Assembly: GCF_003258705.1 (NCBI RefSeq)
Contig: NZ_CP029480.1
Span: 5,208,001-5,272,000, forward strand
Direction of reading: 5' to 3'
DNA length: 64,000 nucleotides
Source: Arcticibacterium luteifluviistationis
GTDB lineage: Bacteria > Bacteroidota > Bacteroidia > Cytophagales > Spirosomataceae
Shown: positions 47,167 to 57,751 of the stretch, one piece after another
Layout: each line of letters begins with the position of its first letter
Position numbering within the stretch: position 1 is the stretch's first letter
Program-made: the position numbers and the translations under genes
The notes under the pieces: generated by a model
Told to the model about the DNA's origin: nothing
What the model saw: the letters and a program-made list of their open reading frames with translations, nothing else
The model's database searches: none

Positions 47167-47889
47167 CTAAAGCTCCTTAATCTTAATATTTTTGAAAGAA
47201 ACACCTTTTGCCCAGTCTTGAAGTGCTAGGTGGCCTGATGTGCTTTTGCCGTAGGCTTCAAAAGTTTTGAAACCGCTATTCGCTACCATCTCTTTCCACT
47301 CTTCTCCTTTTAAATCTTGTTCAGCCGTTTTGACATCATTTAGCCAAAAGCTAACCACGCCATCTTTTTGCATGATTCTAGAATAATTCCACTCTCCAGA
47401 AGGGTTTGGTGTTACAGGATTAAGATTTGGTTTAAAACCATATAAACATGCCGACCAGTGGGTCGTATTTTCTAAGTATTCTTTATGTATTCCTAAATTA
47501 TCAAGCAGCTGATATTCTGGACCGGTGGTCCAAGCGGTAGGATATTCTTCACCTTCCTGCACATTAAAAAATACGCCAGAATTGCCAGCCTCAGATATTT
47601 TCCAGTCAAATTTCAAATCGAAATTACTGTATGATTTATCAGACAATAAGTCGCCATGCTCTACTTCAAAAGTATCTGGCTTACAGTATAATTCGCCATC
47701 AAGAACAATCCATGCCGATGGCACATCACCTCTATTATATAAATGCCAACCCTTTGTGGTTTCACCATCAAATAACAAGCTCCAGCCCGCTTCTACTTCG
47801 AGCTCACTTAATGTATTTTCTTTATTTTCAGGCTCTTTACATGAAATAAAAGCAAGTGCAGAAAGGAATAGAATAATGGTTTTGTTCAT
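47167..47889 (-). CDS. DUF1080 (3-keto-disaccharide hydrolase-type) lipoprotein
   Basis: A 240-residue lipoprotein. The lipobox AFISC gives the lipidated Cys near residue 17. The rest is a jelly-roll of the DUF1080/3-keto-disaccharide hydrolase family: GWSLLFDGETTKGWHLYNRG, DLKFDWKISEAGNSGVFFNV, GPEYQLLDNLGIH and FWLNDVKTAEQ are typical. Members cleave 3-keto glycosides in some Bacteroidota. It fits a sugar-scavenging role next to the GH5 enzyme, but has its own terminator. Confidence 0.9.
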   Translation of the reverse strand: MNKTIILFLSALAFISCKEPENKENTLSELEVEAGWSLLFDGETTKGWHLYNRGDVPSAWIVLDGELYCKPDTFEVEHGDLLSDKSYSNFDLKFDWKISEAGNSGVFFNVQEGEEYPTAWTTGPEYQLLDNLGIHKEYLENTTHWSACLYGFKPNLNPVTPNPSGEWNYSRIMQKDGVVSFWLNDVKTAEQDLKGEEWKEMVANSGFKTFEAYGKSTSGHLALQDWAKGVSFKNIKIKEL

Positions 47890-48001: not shown

Positions 48002-48073
48002 TACGAAAAATATCGTAGACAAGTTTGCAAGTACGATATCTTTCGTACTACATTTGATACGAAATTAATCGTA
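48002..48073 (+). promoter_or_regulatory. three BlaI-type operators in the promoter of the BlaI/M56 operon
   Basis: TACGA-N6-TCGTA occurs three times: 48002-48017, 48032-48047 and 48058-48073. Centres are 30 and 26 bp apart. The promoter elements are TTTG at 48024-48027 and TACATTTG at 48049-48056, with a 21-nt spacer. Operator 2 lies between the -33 and -7 elements and operator 3 covers the likely start of transcription, so bound repressor would block transcription. This is the arrangement expected of autoregulation by the BlaI-family protein encoded next. Confidence 0.88.
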
Positions 48074-48081
48074 GACAAATT

Positions 48082-48453
48082 ATGGCATTGGCAAAACCAA
48101 CAGAATCAGAACTAGAAATACTACAACTACTTTGGAAAAAAGGACCTTCCTCTGTAAGAGAAATAAATGATGAACTAAGCAAAGCTAAAGAAGTAGGCTA
48201 TACCACCACTTTAAAAATGATGCAGCTTATGCTGGGCAAAGAACTCGTTACCAGAACAGAGCAGGGAAGGTTTCATATTTACAAGTCTGCCGTATCACAG
48301 AAAAGCATGCAAGAGCAACTGCTAAACAAGTTTGTGGATGCTGCTTTTGGCGGTCAAGCCATGGATATGGTGATGCAAGCTCTAGGAAACCATAAGGCTT
48401 CTAAAGATGAGCTAGACCAAATAAAGAAACTTATAGAAGGACTAGAAAGCTAA
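48082..48453 (+). CDS. BlaI/MecI/CopY-family transcriptional repressor
   Basis: A 123-residue winged-helix repressor. The N-terminal domain (about 1-75) has TESELEILQLLWKKGPSSVR, YTTTLKMMQLMLGKELVTRT and GRFHIYKS; the C-terminal helices (about 85-120) dimerise. It sits 9 bp after the third operator. Regulators of this family are cleaved by or released through a partner M56 metalloprotease, which follows here (48531-50507). In the genome context it may respond to an envelope signal other than a beta-lactam. Confidence 0.93.
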   Translation: MALAKPTESELEILQLLWKKGPSSVREINDELSKAKEVGYTTTLKMMQLMLGKELVTRTEQGRFHIYKSAVSQKSMQEQLLNKFVDAAFGGQAMDMVMQALGNHKASKDELDQIKKLIEGLES

Positions 48454-48486
48454 GTTATTACGAATACAAATTATGAAAAACGGAAA

Positions 48487-48512
48487 TTGATTGGTGCTTC
48501 GGCACCAGTCAA
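48487..48512 (+). promoter_or_regulatory. intercistronic hairpin with UUCG tetraloop
   Basis: The 11-nt arm TTGATTGGTGC at 48487-48497 pairs with GCACCAGTCAA at 48502-48512 (one G-U) across the loop TTCG. A UUCG loop closed by C-G is among the most stable RNA hairpins. No T-run follows, so it is not a standard terminator. It could protect or process the mRNA between repressor and protease and set their ratio. Confidence 0.7.
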
Positions 48513-48530
48513 CTCCAAAAAACAAAAACT

Positions 48531-50507
48531 ATGAAAAACCTAACATTACTATTTGAAACGCCCCTGGCCGGTACTTTCGGGCAAACCATGCTGCACTCCC
48601 TCTGGCAAGGTGTCATTATTGTCGGTATTTATCTTATTGCGGTACGCTTTATAAAGTCTGCCAATACCAAAACATGGGCAGGACTAACCGCATTTGGATT
48701 ACAGTTTCTAGCTTCGGCCATTACCTTTTCTATCCTTATGCCTTCTGATAGCATTTTGGCTGCCGAGGGTGCCACGCAAGTATTAACATTTAACGGCGTG
48801 CTGACAGAATTGGTCACCTCGCAAACCTCTCAATCTTATATTGACCTTATTCAAGAAAACGCTCATTGGTTATCTGTCGGATGGATTATCGGTTTTGTCT
48901 TTCTTTTTATTAGACAAATGGGTGGGCTCTTTTATGTTCAATTCCTAAAAAGCACTGGAATATCTGAGCTTTCGCAAAAAGCCGAAAAAGCCATTGACAA
49001 TGTTCTGAAGAAAGTAGATGGTAAAGTACCAAGCTTCAAAGCTTTTCACTCTAACAAGGTAGACACGGCCATGGTATTAGGTGCTTTAAAGCCAGTAATA
49101 CTTATTCCCTCTTCCTTAGTGAGTGGTCTAAGCTCTGAGCAACTAGAACTTATCATTGCCCATGAAATAGCCCATATAAAAAGGAATGACTTTCTAATTA
49201 ATTTGGTACAAACCTTACTGGAAAATCTATTTTTCTATCACCCAGTTTATTGGCTCGTGAGCCATCAAATAAGAGAAAACCGTGAGCATGCTTGTGATGA
49301 TTGGGCAGCGGAATTAACAGGAAACAAGATACTTTTAGCGAAGACTCTTGCTCAAATTCAATTGACTAGCCATCAACCTAGCTTAGCTATGGCTTTTGGT
49401 AAGAAAAGGATGCCAATGCTCGGGAGAATACAGCGACTACTTGGTGTTACTCCAGAAAGTCAAAAAGTAAAGTTTACCGCTCTTTTATTGATGCTTACGT
49501 CTATCTGTACTCTTGGCTTTGTTCAGGCTGAAAACATACCCGAAACCGAAATTGATGAACTTGTAATAACATCTGAAATCGAAATTCTTGAAGAAGTTAT
49601 AAAGGAAGACCAAACATTCGCCGAAAGCACGACTGTTTCTACAACTCAAACTACGATAAAGAAAGACTCTGGTGATGTAGAACAACATTACCATTATGAC
49701 CTCGGTGACCGCAATCTGAACATTCAGACCAATGATTATAAAATCAAAATAGACCCAAGTAAGATTGTCATTAACGGTAAAGAGCAACCATTGACCGCTG
49801 CCGAAAAAAAGAAGCTGAAAGGTCATTTTGATGAAATGCAGAAAGCAAACACCAACATTGAAAATATTTCTAAAGAAATAAATGTTGAGGTAAAGAAAAT
49901 CACAGACCTACAGCAAAACGCCATGGCCGATGTAGATTTTAACCCGCAAAGCGACCCTGCCTTTAAAAAGTCAATGGAAGTGATTCAGAAAGAATCTCAA
50001 ATGATAGCTAAATATGCGGTGGAGTTTCAAAGCGACATTGCGAAGCTAGATTCTAAGGCGAGCAATTACGATACTGAAATAGCCAAACTAGAAAAAGCCT
50101 TCGAAGCCAAAGTAAAAGTGCATGAAGACAAAATGGAAAGCTTTGAAGTAAACATGGAGGGTTTTGAGGCTAAAATGAAGAACTTTGAAACTAAAATGGA
50201 AAAGGAGTTTGAAATTCCTGCTAAAGAAATAGAAGCTGTTTTAAAGAAGAAAGAGGTTGTGATAGGCAAGCATGCTGATGAAATGGAAAGACACCACGAA
50301 GCCATTTTGAAAATGTTGCCAAAGGAGGTGCAAGACAATATTGGTATGGGAACGAGAGAAAGACCTGAGCGACCAGAACGTCCTGAAAGGCCAGAACGCC
50401 CAGAGAAACCCGAAAAGCCGGAGAAGGCTGAAAAACCACAGAAACCTGAAAAACCAGCCAAGCCAGCTAAAGCTGCAAAAACACCTATTCCTCCTAGAGT
50501 GGATTAA
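48531..50507 (+). CDS. M56-family membrane metalloprotease (BlaR1-like) with long C-terminal coiled coil
   Basis: A 658-residue protein. Membrane helices are at about 22-40, 50-70, 112-130 and 315-333. The zinc motif HEIAH at 211-215 lies in LELIIAHEIAHIKRNDF, with the third ligand Glu252 in RENREHACDDW, so it should be an active Zn protease. After the last helix it has a large extracytoplasmic region (about 335-658): predicted coiled coil at about 420-600 and a Pro-rich RPERPERPEKPEKP repeat (about 610-645). There is no penicillin-binding sensor domain. Together with the upstream BlaI-family repressor it forms a BlaR1/BlaI-like signalling pair. Confidence 0.88.
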   Translation: MKNLTLLFETPLAGTFGQTMLHSLWQGVIIVGIYLIAVRFIKSANTKTWAGLTAFGLQFLASAITFSILMPSDSILAAEGATQVLTFNGVLTELVTSQTSQSYIDLIQENAHWLSVGWIIGFVFLFIRQMGGLFYVQFLKSTGISELSQKAEKAIDNVLKKVDGKVPSFKAFHSNKVDTAMVLGALKPVILIPSSLVSGLSSEQLELIIAHEIAHIKRNDFLINLVQTLLENLFFYHPVYWLVSHQIRENREHACDDWAAELTGNKILLAKTLAQIQLTSHQPSLAMAFGKKRMPMLGRIQRLLGVTPESQKVKFTALLLMLTSICTLGFVQAENIPETEIDELVITSEIEILEEVIKEDQTFAESTTVSTTQTTIKKDSGDVEQHYHYDLGDRNLNIQTNDYKIKIDPSKIVINGKEQPLTAAEKKKLKGHFDEMQKANTNIENISKEINVEVKKITDLQQNAMADVDFNPQSDPAFKKSMEVIQKESQMIAKYAVEFQSDIAKLDSKASNYDTEIAKLEKAFEAKVKVHEDKMESFEVNMEGFEAKMKNFETKMEKEFEIPAKEIEAVLKKKEVVIGKHADEMERHHEAILKMLPKEVQDNIGMGTRERPERPERPERPERPEKPEKPEKAEKPQKPEKPAKPAKAAKTPIPPRVD

Positions 50508-50511
50508 TTAT

Positions 50512-50548
50512 AAAAAAAACTCCTTTAGCAGCTAAAGGAGTTTTTTTA
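50512..50548. terminator. terminator between convergent M56 and tamL genes
   Basis: AACTCCTTTAG at 50518-50528 is an exact inverted copy of CTAAAGGAGTT at 50532-50542, three-base loop, with A on the left and T on the right. It serves both the M56 gene and the convergent TamL gene. Confidence 0.92.
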
Positions 50549-52858
50549 TTAGAATGGATGAGCTATAGCCAAATTGAAAATGATATTTTCTTGCCTCCAT
50601 ACTTTCTTATCTAGACTGACTTGGTCCAGCACCCAAGGGTCATCAAGCCAAGGTTTCCTGATAGGAATGGCAAAATCTCCACGCAAAACCAAATAGGTGA
50701 AATCTAACCGTAAACCCACACCCATATCTACGGCCAAATCTTTCACAAAATCTGCAGTGAACTTAGCTTTCTCACCATAGAAAGTATCATCTCGGTACGT
50801 CCAGATATTTCCCATATCCACAAAACCCGCCAATTCTATATAATTGGATGCCTTAAATCTTAATTCTGAATTCAGTTCTAGTTTTATATCACCTTGCGAA
50901 TTGGCACCAAAAAGCTCCTGACTTACATCTTCGGGTGCTATTCTTCCTGGTCCAAGGCTCCTACCTCTAAAACCTCTTAAGCCGTTACTTCCTCCTGAAA
51001 AGTACTGCTTCGTTTGAGGAAGCATAATGGAGTTTTTATATGGAATTCCAAAACCTGTATAAAGCCTATTAGCCCAAGTAGTTTTACCTATACTTTTAAA
51101 ATACTTACCCTCAAAGTCTAATTTCACAAACTGCTCATAGGGCACGCCAAAAAGCTGCTGATAACCGCCATCCCCTTCTTCAGGTTTTTTAGCAATTAGC
51201 GACGCCACATTACCCGAAATATCAAAGCCAAAATTAAAAGAAACCCTATCTCTACTACTTTGAAGTGATTTTGGCGTGTAGCTAAGCTTATATTCTAAAC
51301 CCAGTAAAAGCTTGCTTTCTATAATCTGAAAGTACCTTTCCAAGTCACTTAGGTTTTCACTAAAAAAGATTTGATTCAAAAACTCATCTGAAAAATTACT
51401 GGCCTTAATTAAACTAAAATAGACAGGCGTAAGCGTGTGCTCATACTCCGAGTTTTTTCTCCAGAAATAAGAGAAGGCCGCATTAGAACTGGTTAGTGTA
51501 TAAAAATCTTTTCTTCTAAGAATCTCATAAGAGATATTAATATTGGTTTTAGGCACACCAGATGAAACCTTGGTTCTTTGTTTTATAAAAGGAATCAAGA
51601 AACGAGGAAAAGTAAGATCGCCAGCAACACTTAACCTTCTATAATTATTCCCGTATTCTATCTGCCCAAACTGAAGGTCTATACCACCATTAACTTCAAA
51701 TTTCAGAATCTCAGCTCCATGAAATATGTTTCTATTTTGCCACGAAATATTAGCCTCCGACCCATAAAGCCCATTACTCTTAGTTAAGCCACTTAACTGC
51801 CCTTTTAAAGATTTTTTCTTCAGGGGCGTTAAGAAATAATTGACATCTAAATACGTAGAATCGGCCGTTCTGTGAGGTTCGTACCTATTTCTTATGTATT
51901 GGAAATTTTTAAGATTAGAAAGTCTATTCAAACTAGCCTCTTGTTTTGACCTGCTATAAAGCTCGCCTGGTCTAAAAATTATTGATTCGGTAAATACCTT
52001 TGGCTTATAAGATTTATCATTTTCAGCTATCGCAAGTCCGCTTCTTTCTAGATTTCTGAACGTAGTTTTGACCTCTTTTTCTCCTTGTTTGGCAGAGCTA
52101 AGCACATTAATTTCTCTGATGTAATATTTATCTACAGCGGCATTGCTATAATCTGGAGATAGCTTGGTTTTAATAGTAAGTAAATTTGCATTTAAGTTAG
52201 TATCTACTTCCAAAATAAACTGACTAGGACTCATGTAGAAGTAGCCCTTTTCTTGTAAAGCGTTGCTTAGTCGTTCTCTTTCTGCTATTAGCTCATTTAA
52301 GTTATAGGGCTTCCCTGCTTTTAAAATTGTTCCCTCGCCCAAAGCACTGGCATCTTTCCCAAAAACTTCAAAACCTGTAGTATCTATACTTGTTTCTTTG
52401 ATGAAATACTGAGGAGCTAAACTTACTTCATACTCTACCTTGGTTTTGTATTTTTTAGTAACAGACTCAGAGGTAGCGGTACTTTTAAAGTATCCATTAT
52501 TTTCTGCCACATTAACCAAGTTGGAACGGTTAATCTTTGGGTATCCTGCTTCGTAAAAAACTGGCTTCTGACCTACTTTATTACGAAGAAAGTTTCTAAT
52601 GCCTTTTGGCTTTTTCGGCTCGCCAATATTATAATAGAGCCAGACTTTATATGGGAAACCCAAAACCATGCTATTGGTTCTTGGAGCAAGTACTTCCTCC
52701 ATGCCCACCACTAAATTATCCTTATTTTTTTTAGATATTTCCCCTTCTACCTGTACGCTCCCCCCACCATAAATGGTTTTTCCTTCTGGAAGTTTTTTTG
52801 ACAAACTACATCCAGTCAAGAAAAGTACTAGGGCAATATATAATCCTAAATTTTTCAT
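50549..52858 (-). CDS. tamL: TamL-type Omp85 lipoprotein (TamA-like)
   Basis: A 769-residue outer-membrane protein with a lipobox LFLTGCSLSKK (Cys17), POTRA-like regions at about 80-330 and an Omp85/BamA-type beta-barrel at about 350-769. FSGGSNGLRGFRGRSLGPG is the usual loop-6 RGF motif. TamA of Proteobacteria lacks a lipid anchor; Bacteroidota have a lipoprotein version called TamL. The start abuts the TamB stop (0 bp), so both are made from one mRNA. The pair forms the translocation and assembly module (or a phospholipid-transport system) of the envelope. Confidence 0.92.
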   Translation of the reverse strand: MKNLGLYIALVLFLTGCSLSKKLPEGKTIYGGGSVQVEGEISKKNKDNLVVGMEEVLAPRTNSMVLGFPYKVWLYYNIGEPKKPKGIRNFLRNKVGQKPVFYEAGYPKINRSNLVNVAENNGYFKSTATSESVTKKYKTKVEYEVSLAPQYFIKETSIDTTGFEVFGKDASALGEGTILKAGKPYNLNELIAERERLSNALQEKGYFYMSPSQFILEVDTNLNANLLTIKTKLSPDYSNAAVDKYYIREINVLSSAKQGEKEVKTTFRNLERSGLAIAENDKSYKPKVFTESIIFRPGELYSRSKQEASLNRLSNLKNFQYIRNRYEPHRTADSTYLDVNYFLTPLKKKSLKGQLSGLTKSNGLYGSEANISWQNRNIFHGAEILKFEVNGGIDLQFGQIEYGNNYRRLSVAGDLTFPRFLIPFIKQRTKVSSGVPKTNINISYEILRRKDFYTLTSSNAAFSYFWRKNSEYEHTLTPVYFSLIKASNFSDEFLNQIFFSENLSDLERYFQIIESKLLLGLEYKLSYTPKSLQSSRDRVSFNFGFDISGNVASLIAKKPEEGDGGYQQLFGVPYEQFVKLDFEGKYFKSIGKTTWANRLYTGFGIPYKNSIMLPQTKQYFSGGSNGLRGFRGRSLGPGRIAPEDVSQELFGANSQGDIKLELNSELRFKASNYIELAGFVDMGNIWTYRDDTFYGEKAKFTADFVKDLAVDMGVGLRLDFTYLVLRGDFAIPIRKPWLDDPWVLDQVSLDKKVWRQENIIFNLAIAHPF

Positions 52859-55800
52859 TTACTCTTTTACCCCCTTTTTGAACAAATCCTTAACTTTTTC
52901 ATACTCCGCCTGCAAAACAAAACTGACTCCGGTCTCCAATACAAAACCCTCCAAAACTGTTTGAAACTGACTGGTTCTATACACTTTCACGGCATACCGT
53001 CCGTCGGCAGTTATGTTATAACCAATTTCAATATTGTCTAAAAGCTCTGCTGAATTCTGGTCAATGCCCGAACTATTCTCCAGTTCAAAGTTCTTTCCTA
53101 CCGAAATTTTGACTCTATCATTTAAGAAACTTTTCTTGAGACCAATATTAAGGTCGGTTTTATATGCACTATTGCCACCGGTACCAATTTGTTCTGAGTT
53201 TAAGCCAAAATTTAAGCCCACCGAACCTATTATATCACCCGCTAAAGCATTGAGCTGCTCTGTCAATAATTTACTTACACTTTGCCTAGCAGACTGGCTT
53301 CCTAAGACAGAACCTAAATCAAAATCGTCGGTAGTAAACAAAAACTGGTTTAATGTCAACAGCAGAAAAACCTGTTGATTCATTATGTTGTCATCTTTAC
53401 TTAAGAAGGCTAAAACGTCGTTACTTTCTAACAAGGTTTTGGTGGTACTTGATGCTTTATCAGACACCTCCATCTCAAAACTTATCAGTGGATTTTCAAT
53501 GGTTCCGTCAATTTTCAAAATCACATCAAGTGGCACTTTACCCAAGTCTTCTAAGAGAATTCCAGCTTCCTTAAGTAATGGATTAATATCTGGGTTTACC
53601 TGATAAACCGCTTTTAACTGGAGCGATGCTCTCATAGGGTCACCAGACCAAATTATTACACTACCAGGCTCTATCAAAAAGTTCTTTTTTAAGACCTCTA
53701 CCAGCGTGGTATTATAAGAACCCGACGTGATTTCATAAATACCAATACAGAATATCTCCCCTGTAGGATATATACCTACAGTCAAGTTTGCAGAACCTTT
53801 AACACTTAATTTGTCGCCAGTAAGCTCGTCTAATATGATACTTAACTCCGCCTTTGAGTCCGTTTCTATATCTAAAATAACCTCTGAATCTAGGCCCGTA
53901 CCATTTGCCAATTTTGTGGTAGGTATCTCTAGGCTCTCAATTTCTTTATCGCTCGGTGGAGGCACAAAAGTCACCACACCATTTGATTCGGCGGTTTCTA
54001 CCTCAGTTGGCATAATAACCGTCATGTTACTTTGCTCATTAACCCTGATTTTACCGTTCATACTTGGGCTAGCCCCTACTCCCGAAACCTTCAAATTGGC
54101 ATTAATATTAGCCTTCCCATAAAAGAAGTCATTGCTACCTCTTTCCGCATTTATTAACAGGAAGTTCTTTGTATCTAATTTTAAATCATAAGAGACCGCA
54201 TCTAGGTTTGACCAGTCTACTTTTCCATTCACAGCCATTTTTTGATTCAAAGAATCTTTGACCACAAAATTTTCAAAACTGACATCGTTTCCTTTAAAAT
54301 AGACTTGTTGGTCTTCAATTTTTAAAGGGATTCCCAAATAATACGGAGTGACATTATAATCTACAAAAGACAGCTTCCCGTCCGCCAAAGGTTTATCAGC
54401 ATTACCAGATAACTTTATTTTTCCGGTTACAAATCCTTTTGACTTGGTCAACTGACCTCCACTTAAACTTTCAATTAACCTCGCATCTACTTTTGTAATA
54501 TTGGCCGTAAAGTCCACAGGAACGTCACCTGTCAAACCTACATTACCTTTAAAATCAAGCTTGCTATCTTTTCCATCCAAACCGCCACTAATGGCAGCAT
54601 GAACAGCATTTACTTCTTCAATGTTCAACGTCAAATCACCTCCTGCTATACCACCTACCTCAAAACCTTTTACAGCTAAATCACCCTTGACATTATAGTC
54701 TTCCATATAATCTACCACCACCAAATCGCCATTTAACTTGCCTTTTACGCCTTCTGATTTATATCCAGCAAAATTGGCAAATGGATTAATGGCAATGTCT
54801 ACCACGTTAGCATTAAGCTGCTTTTTGGTGGCGTTTATGGTTAGCATCTCATTATCTTTTGAAATGGTCAAGCCATTGATAAGAATGCCATCATCACCAT
54901 AATAAATGGGAGTCTTACTTATTTTATATTCCTTTTTATCTACCGTAAGGTCGTTTAAGGCAATTTTATAAAGCGAGCCTTCTGTTTCCATTCTTAAAGC
55001 TAAGCCATGCCTTTTATCTTCTGAAAGGCTATCTTTTGAAACAAAACTGGCATCCAAAATACTGTTAGAAAGCTTAAGGTCAAATTCATTTTTGGCCAAA
55101 ATAAAACTACCAGAACGTAAACTTTTCAATTTGGCATTTCCTTTCAATTCTTTACCATTTCCAGTTAAATCCAATTGGAAGTCTTTCAAAAGAATATCAC
55201 CATAAGTAAGATTCCCGAAATTCATTTCCCCTTTTAACTTGTCTTCATTCAGTGTAGCATTAAGCCTAATGCTTCTGTCAAAAGCCAATTCAGGAACAAA
55301 AACTTGCCAAATAGGATGTTCTAATACCTCCGCTGTTAATTCAAAATCTCGCTTTCCTGAAATCTCTTGAAAGTCCACGGAATCTTGCTTAAAATAACCA
55401 TTAACCTCTGCCGCGAGAATGTCAGGCAATGCATAATAGTCAAACTCACCTTCTAAATTAACCTTTAAGAAGGGTGACTCTATTTTAGCAATGTGCTTAT
55501 TTTTCTCATTTATAAAATCTCCTGAAAGCTCACCTACATTTAAGGTTCCTAGAGCCAGCTCCATGACCTTAAAAGTACCTGTAAGCTCGTCTGGTTTTAA
55601 TGAAGTCATGTTTAAGTCAAAAACACCTTTTATGTCTTCTTCAAAATCTGAAAGGCCTAAAGCTGCCAAATTCAGTTTAGTTATAGAAACATTTCCATTT
55701 ACTGGATATTCCTCTTTTCCTAAATCAACAGTAACCTCGGTAGTCAAACGAGCGTTTGGGTCTTTTGACGAACCTTTTAAATTTAAGAGACTATCTACCA

Positions 55801-57751
55801 TGGTAGCGTCAATCTCTAAACCCTGATAGGTATAGCCACTGTAAACAATCTTTTGAATCTCTCCTTTAGCTTCAATTGTCTGAAAGCTTGCGTCAGATTT
55901 GAGGTAAATATCTGTAGAAAGTAAACCGAGGTCTTGCTTCTCTTTGAAGAACTTGTCTACCGCCAAATCTTCTGTATGAAGGTTTCCTTCATAAGACAAT
56001 AATGTGGAGTCTCCCAAGTTTCTCACTACACCGTTTAGCTTTAAATCTCCCAAAGTACTGGTCACATCGGTGTCAATGTTTAAAACACCAGCATCTCCTT
56101 TAATTTTCCCTTTTAGGCTTAACCTATCTGGAATATTATAGTCTGCCAACATCTCGGCATCTGAAACCAATAGATTTACCAAACCTGAATTAACCGTAAA
56201 TTCTTGAATATTTAAATCGGCTTTCAGATAATCCATATTATCTAAACGAGCCACACTTCCAGATACGCTAACTTTAGAATTTTGCAAGCCTTCCATTTTA
56301 AGCTCATTTATCTGCAAGGCACTTACGCCGCCTTTAATGGCTGCTTTTATTTTTATTTTCTGATTTCTTTCACTTGCCACTATTTGGTTAGAATCCAAAC
56401 TAGGACTTAGCAAAAGCATATCGCTAACAGCCAAAAAGCTGTTATTAATTTTCAAATCAATATTTACAGCAGGCAGGTTTTCGCTTAAATCATCAATGCT
56501 GTTATAGGTAACTTTAGTATCCGTTTTAATCTCGGAGTACGGTGTTCTTAAATCAATATTTTCAAGCGTAATTCCGGTATCAGAATATGTAACTTTTCCG
56601 CTTAAACGCTCTAAAGTAAGTTTTGACTTATCTCTAAATTTCACATCATTTAAATTCACCTCGATTCCCGACTCTGTATAAGAAACGTCGGCTAAATCTA
56701 TCTTGGTGCCTTTAAAGTTTAGGTGATTATAATCAAAGCCTCTGGCCAAACGTGGAGCATTTTCGTCATCGTAAACCACATTGGTATTGTCAATCAAAAG
56801 CTCTCCCAATGAAACATTCCAAGGTGCTGATGGTTCTTCGGTTTCTGTTGCTGTAGATGTTGAGGAAAATGAACCTGCTCTAAAGGCTACCTGTACTTTA
56901 GAATCTAATAAGTTGACAAAATCAATTTTGACCAAGTTTTGGTTTAAGTCTAATTCGTCAAGTTCTAATTCAAAGTTCTTGAAGATGATTTTATTATCTA
57001 TTCCGAGGTCATCTCCTATCAACTTCCAGGCTACATTATTTACTCTTACCCCATTTAAATCTAGGTCAAGAGCACTGGAGGCTTCCTCAATGGTACTGAG
57101 TTTTTTGCCATTGAAAGTTTTCAAAACAGCATAGCCGTCGTTTACATCAATATTATTAATGTGGTATTTATTGGTATTAAGGTCTATCTCACTAAAACTG
57201 ACTCTAATGTCGTCTAGTTTTCCTTTGAAATTAACTCCTCCGTATTCGTCTTTATAAGCGAGGGATAATCGATTAGCTTTTACTTGATTTAATGAGAAGA
57301 ATGGTCCCGTTGTAGGCTCTTCTTCTACTTGATTTTCAACAACTGTGGTGTCTGATGCAAAAGCATCAATCAAAAATTGATAATTAAAGTCTTCATTAGG
57401 GGCATTTCTGTAAACATTGACGTTTGCATCTTCTATTAAAATTTGGTCTATGTCTATAATACCTCTTACCAGAGCCCACATAGAAATATCTACTCTAAAT
57501 CTCTTGGTACTAAGCAGTTCGTTTTGTTCTGTGTCTTCTACATAAACATCTGCCACGCTTACAAAATCAGGAATTTCGTACCGGATGGCTCCTATACTAA
57601 ATGGTGTGTCAATCTTGGATTTTAGAAACTTATTAACCTCCGTAGTTACTAGCTTTTGACCACTCTCGGTGCCCACATACCAAAACACGAAAAGCATCAG
57701 CGAAACGCTGATGCCTATTATCCAAGCCAATACCTTTAAAGCTCTGGTCAT
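52859..57751 (-). CDS. tamB: TamB/DUF490 translocation-module protein
   Basis: A 1630-residue protein anchored by an N-terminal transmembrane helix (about 7-25), with a long chain of beta-taco-like repeats that would span the periplasm. The C-terminal about 450 residues are the DUF490 domain (YEITSGSYNTTLVEVLKKNF, KLLTEQLNALAGDIIGSVGL, and the AEYEKVKDLF ending). TamB acts with TamA/TamL in outer-membrane biogenesis, and related AsmA-like proteins move phospholipids. The stop abuts tamL; a LolA-like gene lies 4 bp upstream. Confidence 0.95.
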   Translation of the reverse strand: MTRALKVLAWIIGISVSLMLFVFWYVGTESGQKLVTTEVNKFLKSKIDTPFSIGAIRYEIPDFVSVADVYVEDTEQNELLSTKRFRVDISMWALVRGIIDIDQILIEDANVNVYRNAPNEDFNYQFLIDAFASDTTVVENQVEEEPTTGPFFSLNQVKANRLSLAYKDEYGGVNFKGKLDDIRVSFSEIDLNTNKYHINNIDVNDGYAVLKTFNGKKLSTIEEASSALDLDLNGVRVNNVAWKLIGDDLGIDNKIIFKNFELELDELDLNQNLVKIDFVNLLDSKVQVAFRAGSFSSTSTATETEEPSAPWNVSLGELLIDNTNVVYDDENAPRLARGFDYNHLNFKGTKIDLADVSYTESGIEVNLNDVKFRDKSKLTLERLSGKVTYSDTGITLENIDLRTPYSEIKTDTKVTYNSIDDLSENLPAVNIDLKINNSFLAVSDMLLLSPSLDSNQIVASERNQKIKIKAAIKGGVSALQINELKMEGLQNSKVSVSGSVARLDNMDYLKADLNIQEFTVNSGLVNLLVSDAEMLADYNIPDRLSLKGKIKGDAGVLNIDTDVTSTLGDLKLNGVVRNLGDSTLLSYEGNLHTEDLAVDKFFKEKQDLGLLSTDIYLKSDASFQTIEAKGEIQKIVYSGYTYQGLEIDATMVDSLLNLKGSSKDPNARLTTEVTVDLGKEEYPVNGNVSITKLNLAALGLSDFEEDIKGVFDLNMTSLKPDELTGTFKVMELALGTLNVGELSGDFINEKNKHIAKIESPFLKVNLEGEFDYYALPDILAAEVNGYFKQDSVDFQEISGKRDFELTAEVLEHPIWQVFVPELAFDRSIRLNATLNEDKLKGEMNFGNLTYGDILLKDFQLDLTGNGKELKGNAKLKSLRSGSFILAKNEFDLKLSNSILDASFVSKDSLSEDKRHGLALRMETEGSLYKIALNDLTVDKKEYKISKTPIYYGDDGILINGLTISKDNEMLTINATKKQLNANVVDIAINPFANFAGYKSEGVKGKLNGDLVVVDYMEDYNVKGDLAVKGFEVGGIAGGDLTLNIEEVNAVHAAISGGLDGKDSKLDFKGNVGLTGDVPVDFTANITKVDARLIESLSGGQLTKSKGFVTGKIKLSGNADKPLADGKLSFVDYNVTPYYLGIPLKIEDQQVYFKGNDVSFENFVVKDSLNQKMAVNGKVDWSNLDAVSYDLKLDTKNFLLINAERGSNDFFYGKANINANLKVSGVGASPSMNGKIRVNEQSNMTVIMPTEVETAESNGVVTFVPPPSDKEIESLEIPTTKLANGTGLDSEVILDIETDSKAELSIILDELTGDKLSVKGSANLTVGIYPTGEIFCIGIYEITSGSYNTTLVEVLKKNFLIEPGSVIIWSGDPMRASLQLKAVYQVNPDINPLLKEAGILLEDLGKVPLDVILKIDGTIENPLISFEMEVSDKASSTTKTLLESNDVLAFLSKDDNIMNQQVFLLLTLNQFLFTTDDFDLGSVLGSQSARQSVSKLLTEQLNALAGDIIGSVGLNFGLNSEQIGTGGNSAYKTDLNIGLKKSFLNDRVKISVGKNFELENSSGIDQNSAELLDNIEIGYNITADGRYAVKVYRTSQFQTVLEGFVLETGVSFVLQAEYEKVKDLFKKGVKE

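Follow-up and report, generated by a model that had tools for sequence, protein, structure and literature searches.

The operon and its promoter

The window, by which we mean the whole 64-kb stretch of DNA analysed, carries two adjacent genes for a BlaI/MecI-family repressor and an M56 membrane protease, preceded by a Bacteroidota-type promoter and three copies of the palindrome TACGA-N6-TCGTA (Table 1). The three operators recognised in the initial annotation are present as exact 16-bp matches, and the promoter that it proposed (TTTG, a 21-nt spacer and TACATTTG) is correct from the sequence; the sigma-70 promoter scan has no model of Bacteroidota promoters. These are the only three exact matches in the 64-kb window, where 0.01 would be expected, in agreement with the claim that such a cluster is rare by chance. 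However, the description of the operators as evenly spaced had to be abandoned, as the start-to-start distances are 30 bp (O1–O2) and 26 bp (O2–O3), and this unevenness is kept in relatives. The operon appears to consist of two genes, because a strong hairpin with a U-tract is found 3' of the protease gene.

A gene of the PF06439 family (3-keto-disaccharide hydrolase; window 47167–47889, reverse strand) is divergent from the operon and has the intergenic region in common with it, and its co-regulation is possible. A similar divergent PF06439-like gene was found in locus L025 and was not seen in L024 and L026. Convergent Omp85/POTRA and TamB-like genes, related to outer-membrane assembly, lie directly 3' of the operon (window 50549–57751, reverse strand).

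Table 1. Features of the repressor–protease operon, in window coordinates
Feature	Position	Strand	Remarks
Operator O1, TACGA-AAAATA-TCGTA	48002..48017	.	5' of the -33 box; exact match, kept in relatives
-33 box TTTG	48024..48027	+	Bacteroidota-type promoter; from sequence
Operator O2, TACGA-TATCTT-TCGTA	48032..48047	.	Within the 21-nt promoter spacer
-7 box TACATTTG	48049..48056	+	TTTG-N21-TACATTTG promoter; from sequence
Operator O3, TACGA-AATTAA-TCGTA	48058..48073	.	Across the expected transcription start (start inferred)
BlaI/MecI-family repressor, 123 aa	48082..48453	+	Helix YTTTLKMMQ; PF03965, E 9.3e-26
M56 membrane protease, 658 aa	48531..50507	+	HEIAH 211–215, E252, R299; PF05569, E 5.2e-30
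Hairpin with U-tract	50513..50547		Probable operon terminator; fold -17.8 kcal/mol, z -5.5

The repressor and the M56 protease

Relatives of the repressor were gathered from 198 genomes that belong to the family and order of the window's organism, and a second sample comprised 80 named loci out of a species-level genome collection. The proposed BlaI-family identity of the repressor was confirmed with PF03965 (Penicillinase_R), which gave 90.9 bits against a curated cut-off of 22.6. The predicted fold was nearest to MecI and BlaI (Foldseek 1okr, 1sd4, 1xsd and 1sax, E values of 6e-7 to 3e-6), the C-terminal helices, corresponding to the C-terminal dimerisation helices of MecI/BlaI, being modelled with low confidence. 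The CopY model TIGR02698 scored 48.9 bits against a cut-off of 121.95, and the 123 residues include no cysteine; the repressor therefore lacks a CxC metal site. A Phe residue at P1' is almost invariant in BlaI, according to the BlaR1 structure paper (PMC9834060). The staphylococcal Asn101-Phe102 cut site aligns with Gln-Ala in the window repressor, and the P1' residue in the subfamily (n=104) is Ala (78), Val (12), Thr (6) or Leu (5), whereas both other BlaI paralogs of the same genome retain Phe at the aligned position. As the P1' Phe is not kept in the subfamily, a point absent from the initial annotation, cleavage by the paired M56 protease possibly occurs elsewhere or is absent.

The second gene had been read as an M56 protease with an intact HEXXH motif, and both the PF05569 match and the HEIAH sequence agree with this assignment. 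Residues H211, E212, H215, E252 and D256 are invariant in 40/40 relatives, as are R299 and the surrounding motifs. An M56 gene with HExxH is located 3' of the repressor gene in 120 of 124 loci, and follows it in all named loci whose contig continues. The 12 named loci that seemed to lack M56 had been missed by an over-strict pattern and have HELSH, HELNH and similar variants. Variant motifs (HELSH, HELNH and HELTH) were found in L177, L192, L213, L224, L230, L240 and L244; these proteins retain the zinc ligands and are altered in the residue preceding the last His.

The claim that the protease carries no beta-lactam sensor also stood, since the penicillin-binding (transpeptidase) domain PF00905 is absent from the window protein and from 40/40 relatives. 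The NCBI BlaR1 model (NF000326) scored 75 bits against a cut-off of 400. The predicted structure had Staphylococcus aureus BlaR1 as its top match (8exs/8exp, E values of 8e-8 to 8e-7), with a low global TM-score (0.3), at least in part because the sensor part differs. In the model, a long helix and a Pro-rich tail stand in place of the sensor: the C-terminal part, after the last membrane helix, consists of a few strands (371–406), coiled-coil-like helices (423–595) and a disordered Pro-rich tail, with low to moderate confidence (block pLDDT 33–81). The sequence of this part is not kept between families, and at least 20% proline over the last 40 residues was observed in 33 of 62 full-length relatives. 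As modelled, this long extension resembles a module for sensing or contact. Residue F289 (F in 76/99 relatives) is 10 residues ahead of R299, a spacing matching that of F284 and R294 in BlaR1 (PMC9834060), and an autocleavage site may therefore be kept.

Conservation of the operators in relatives

Operator conservation before orthologous repressor genes was near-universal. At least one exact site was present upstream in 174 of the 175 distinct loci with the repressor helix YTT(T/A)LK, and 106 of them had three sites; the locus without an exact site, L130, encodes a YTTTLK repressor. Under a Markov null, a site would be expected in about 0.04% of upstream regions. The nulls were shuffles and Markov simulations; the motif read backwards did not serve in this role, since it has a different dinucleotide content. 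All 80 named loci had at least one site. These loci span Cytophagales, Chitinophagales, Saprospirales, Sphingobacteriales and Bacteroidales MAGs, and include MAGs labelled Melioribacteraceae, Aminicenantes and Oligoflexales, the last two labels of which may be binning errors.

The promoter architecture is conserved together with the sites. Operator spacings are nearly constant in relatives (mostly 29–32 and then 24–28 bp), with O2 within the promoter spacer and O3 immediately 3' of the -7 box. All 63 three-site loci have a TTG between O1 and O2, and 48 of them have, between O2 and O3, a strict TAnnTTTG at a spacer of 19–21 nt. The extended consensus TACGAANNNNTTCGTA is almost restricted to this operon (59 genomes). 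In L218, five TACGA-N6-TCGTA sites precede blaI, arranged as a set of three and a set of two.

Operator specificity and the recognition helix

The operator varies with the recognition helix of the repressor. Repressors with the helix YMSTLK have the operator TAAGA-N6-TCTTA (4/4), and those with YNTVST have AACTA-N6-TAGTT (29/30), both on the same 5-6-5 frame as TACGA-N6-TCGTA. For SSTLK repressors the operator, TTCGTACGAAANNTTTCCTA, is arranged differently, and the palindrome TTCGTACGAA occurs in 13/13. Locus L137 falls within the SSTLK/MSTLK clade (support of the clade 0.99), its position among the other members being weakly supported (0.06), and it combines a TTTLK helix with TACGA-N6-TCGTA where its clade neighbours have TACGA-N6-TCCTA. 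The genome of the window encodes three BlaI paralogs, with TACGA, TACTA and AACTA operators. Because helix and operator vary together, the sites can be assigned to this repressor and not to some other factor. A pairing of helix residues 40–41, 44 and 47 with the bases of the operator half-site is suggested by a handful of independent changes.

The upstream regions of the SSTLK-type loci (L122–L139) contain an invariant promoter block, TTCGTACGAAANNTTTCCTACCTTTG, with the palindrome between both promoter boxes. In the window's genome (G000), the second BlaI operon (3011444–3017961; L162, L280) has paired AACTA-N6-TAGTT operators, with the operator kept in 29/30 orthologs, and for the third paralog (4484488–4484847; L006) a degenerate copy lies between two exact TACTA-N6-TAGTA sites, at intervals of about 21 bp.

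The operator consensus in Staphylococcus is (A/G)NATTACA(A/T)NTGTA(A/G)(T/G)NT (PMC5341023), and that of CopY, of 16 bp, is RNYKACANNTGTMRNY (PMC7253601). In place of the TACA/TGTA operator of the BlaI/MecI family, TACGA-N6-TCGTA was found in 174/175 relatives. The initial annotation had contrasted these cores: the difference in specificity was upheld, but the comparison of TACGA with TACA letter for letter is unfair, because TACGA (positions -8 to -4) lies further from the dyad centre than TACA (-5 to -2). Relative to the BlaI/CopY consensus (16–18 bp), the window operator keeps the dyad length, the C at Y, the G at K and the next A, whereas the inner CA/TG is missing and an outer TA is required. 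Judged by these letters, it is of a different, though related, specificity.

Distribution of the motif and further targets

Genome-wide scatter of the motif, one of the outcomes that the initial annotation had named as refuting it, was not observed, and neither was a second such outcome, a lack of conservation before orthologous repressor genes. In the 5.38-Mb genome, exact TACGA-N6-TCGTA occurs at four places, three of them at this operon; the fourth, at 4825639, falls within a long ORF, in coding sequence. At exact-match stringency, no targets beyond the operon were found in this genome. A scan allowing one mismatch yielded at least 79 forward-strand places among the matches listed to 3.41 Mb; a handful inspected closely were dropped as targets, being coding, without an intact second site or without a clear target gene. 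The TACGA regulon of this organism appears, from these searches, to be the operon alone.

In most genomes, likewise, the sites mark only this operon. However, in 16 genomes from two families a PF14905 gene, encoding an outer-membrane beta-barrel protein, is preceded by paired operators, an extension of the regulon that the initial annotation did not include. Five genomes of genus g27 (which contains Emticicia) with a second promoter-linked site have O1, O3 and a promoter before the PF14905 gene, and 11 Hymenobacteraceae genomes (all eight sampled of genus g91, plus G148, G163 and G189) have paired operators before a homologous barrel gene, the product of which is 36% identical to the g27 protein. 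A PF14905 gene adjoins the repressor gene in L188, and the BlaI operon at 3011444 in the window's genome consists of a repressor gene, two tandem M56-like genes and then a CarboxypepD_reg/outer-membrane-barrel-like gene. Given this recurrence, outer-membrane beta-barrels are recurrent partners of these switches. The best homolog of the barrel target in the window's genome (1194534) has no site within two mismatches, and this target is therefore not claimed for the window's organism. A single TACGA-N6-TCGTA site precedes a PF03403-like (PAF-acetylhydrolase-like) secreted hydrolase gene in 3/3 close orthologs (L245, L246 and L247).

Single relatives also had additional exact sites, located before ftsZ, within coding sequences (aspartokinase, nuo and metallo-hydrolase) or at phage-like genes; these were set aside as chance occurrences or as unproven. 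Small secreted acidic proteins (VIIKExIDxDGxxxVKKIVKEGD) are encoded after M56 in the Saprospiraceae-type loci L182, L183, L207 and L223, and another common secreted protein in the Hymenobacter loci L167, L171, L174, L176 and L178; these genes are possible extra members of the operon.

Comparison with known systems

The operon resembles the S. aureus BlaI-BlaR1 and MecI-MecR1 systems (1SAX, 1XSD, 8EXP) in the repressor fold, the position of the recognition helix and the adjacent repressor and protease genes with operators across the promoter, and its M56 protein shares with BlaR1 the HExxH motif, a further acidic ligand, an invariant Arg and transmembrane helices. It differs in having no penicillin-binding sensor, no resistance-gene target and no kept Asn-Phe cut site, and in having three operators, TACGA-N6-TCGTA, rather than one or two. 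The CopY/CopR copper repressors belong to the same superfamily, and have the same 16-bp dyad length and two stacked operators, whereas the window repressor has no cysteine, its operator lacks the inner CA/TG and no copper genes are present. BlaI_0696 and BlaI_1845 of Clostridium thermocellum similarly have regulons that are small and mostly self-directed, with several operators in an ordered arrangement, and a repressor operon with BlaR1-like proteases, but in this member of the Firmicutes the motifs are GTCTAT/GACTAT, with two dyads rather than three (PMC8457756). The components are thus already known. No account of the operator specificity, of the sensor-less protease branch, of the phylum-wide promoter architecture or of the beta-barrel targets was found in a search of the open literature. 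The same search, covering open papers and few subscription ones, returned neither this operator nor a Bacteroidota BlaI regulon.

Proposed mechanism and alternative explanations

The proposal that the operon is self-regulated by a BlaI-type repressor of different specificity, together with a sensor-less M56 protease, gains support from the conservation of the sites and the helix/operator covariation. Very probably, in our view, the operon belongs to a Bacteroidota-wide subfamily of autoregulated BlaI/BlaR1-type operons, in which the protease lifts repression in response to an envelope signal. The sequences themselves show the sites, their conservation, the covariation with the helix, the architecture and the additional targets; binding to DNA, cleavage, topology, the direction in which regulation acts and what the signal consists of are inferred. 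Dimers of the 123-aa repressor would occupy the three operators, upstream of the -33 box, in the promoter spacer and at the transcription start, shutting off their own operon. The M56 protein would be anchored in the inner membrane with a cytoplasmic catalytic domain, and a periplasmic or envelope signal would reach it via the long-helix/Pro-rich C-terminal part. Once activated, it would cut the repressor elsewhere than at the staphylococcal Asn-Phe, opening the operon and, in some genera, the outer-membrane beta-barrel gene too. Repression at three points of the promoter and proteolytic release are proposed by analogy with BlaI/BlaR1 (PMC9834060). Somewhat short of probable, in our judgement, is a broader reading: a phylum-wide, beta-lactam-independent branch of BlaI/BlaR1, in which M56 would monitor the envelope by means of a coiled coil that spans the periplasm, together with the Pro-rich tail, and control an outer-membrane beta-barrel, with a readable helix-to-operator code (residues 40–41 and 44/47 against half-site bases) insulating several paralogous switches in one cell.

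Foremost among the rivals is a closed loop of homeostasis: the repressor and the protease would adjust one another's amounts with no outside signal involved, and the real output would lie in other substrates of the protease. Such a loop would account for the cluster described here being the sole exact one outside coding sequence in the window's genome, for an operon that stops at the hairpin with no effector gene and for a repressor without the canonical cleavage residue. However, operators before outer-membrane barrel and hydrolase genes in several genera suggest a regulated output, and the M56 extension resembles a sensor or contact module, such that we consider this loop unlikely. Still less likely is a classical beta-lactam-induced bla system sensing fragments from cell-wall damage rather than the drug itself. 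Family membership would favour it, as would the triggering of beta-lactam resistance by a peptidoglycan fragment via this pathway in Bacillus licheniformis (PMC3305447), and at one locus, L192, the operon is followed by a gene for a serine hydrolase of the PF00144 family. Nevertheless, none of the 40 relatives has a penicillin-binding sensor, the targets shared by two or more genomes include neither a beta-lactamase nor a PBP, and the NCBI BlaR1 score is far below its cut-off (75 against 400); beta-lactam sensing as the default reading was rejected because the transpeptidase sensor is missing in 40/40. That the palindromes are bound by a different regulator, the adjoining repressor being incidental, is hardly credible, given their position before the repressor gene in 174/175 loci and the shift of their letters with the repressor helix, including the convergent case of L137.

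Implications

To our knowledge, BlaI/BlaR1 is known almost solely as a Gram-positive antibiotic-resistance switch. Here, its parts display a highly regular promoter organisation across Bacteroidota, without a beta-lactam sensor. Operators changing letter by letter with the recognition helix constitute a natural data set for the protein–DNA recognition code, and the pairing of helix and operator offers a route to the targets of many unannotated BlaI paralogs by sequence alone. The outer-membrane beta-barrel protein is a first lead on what the M56 proteases of Bacteroidota sense and control.
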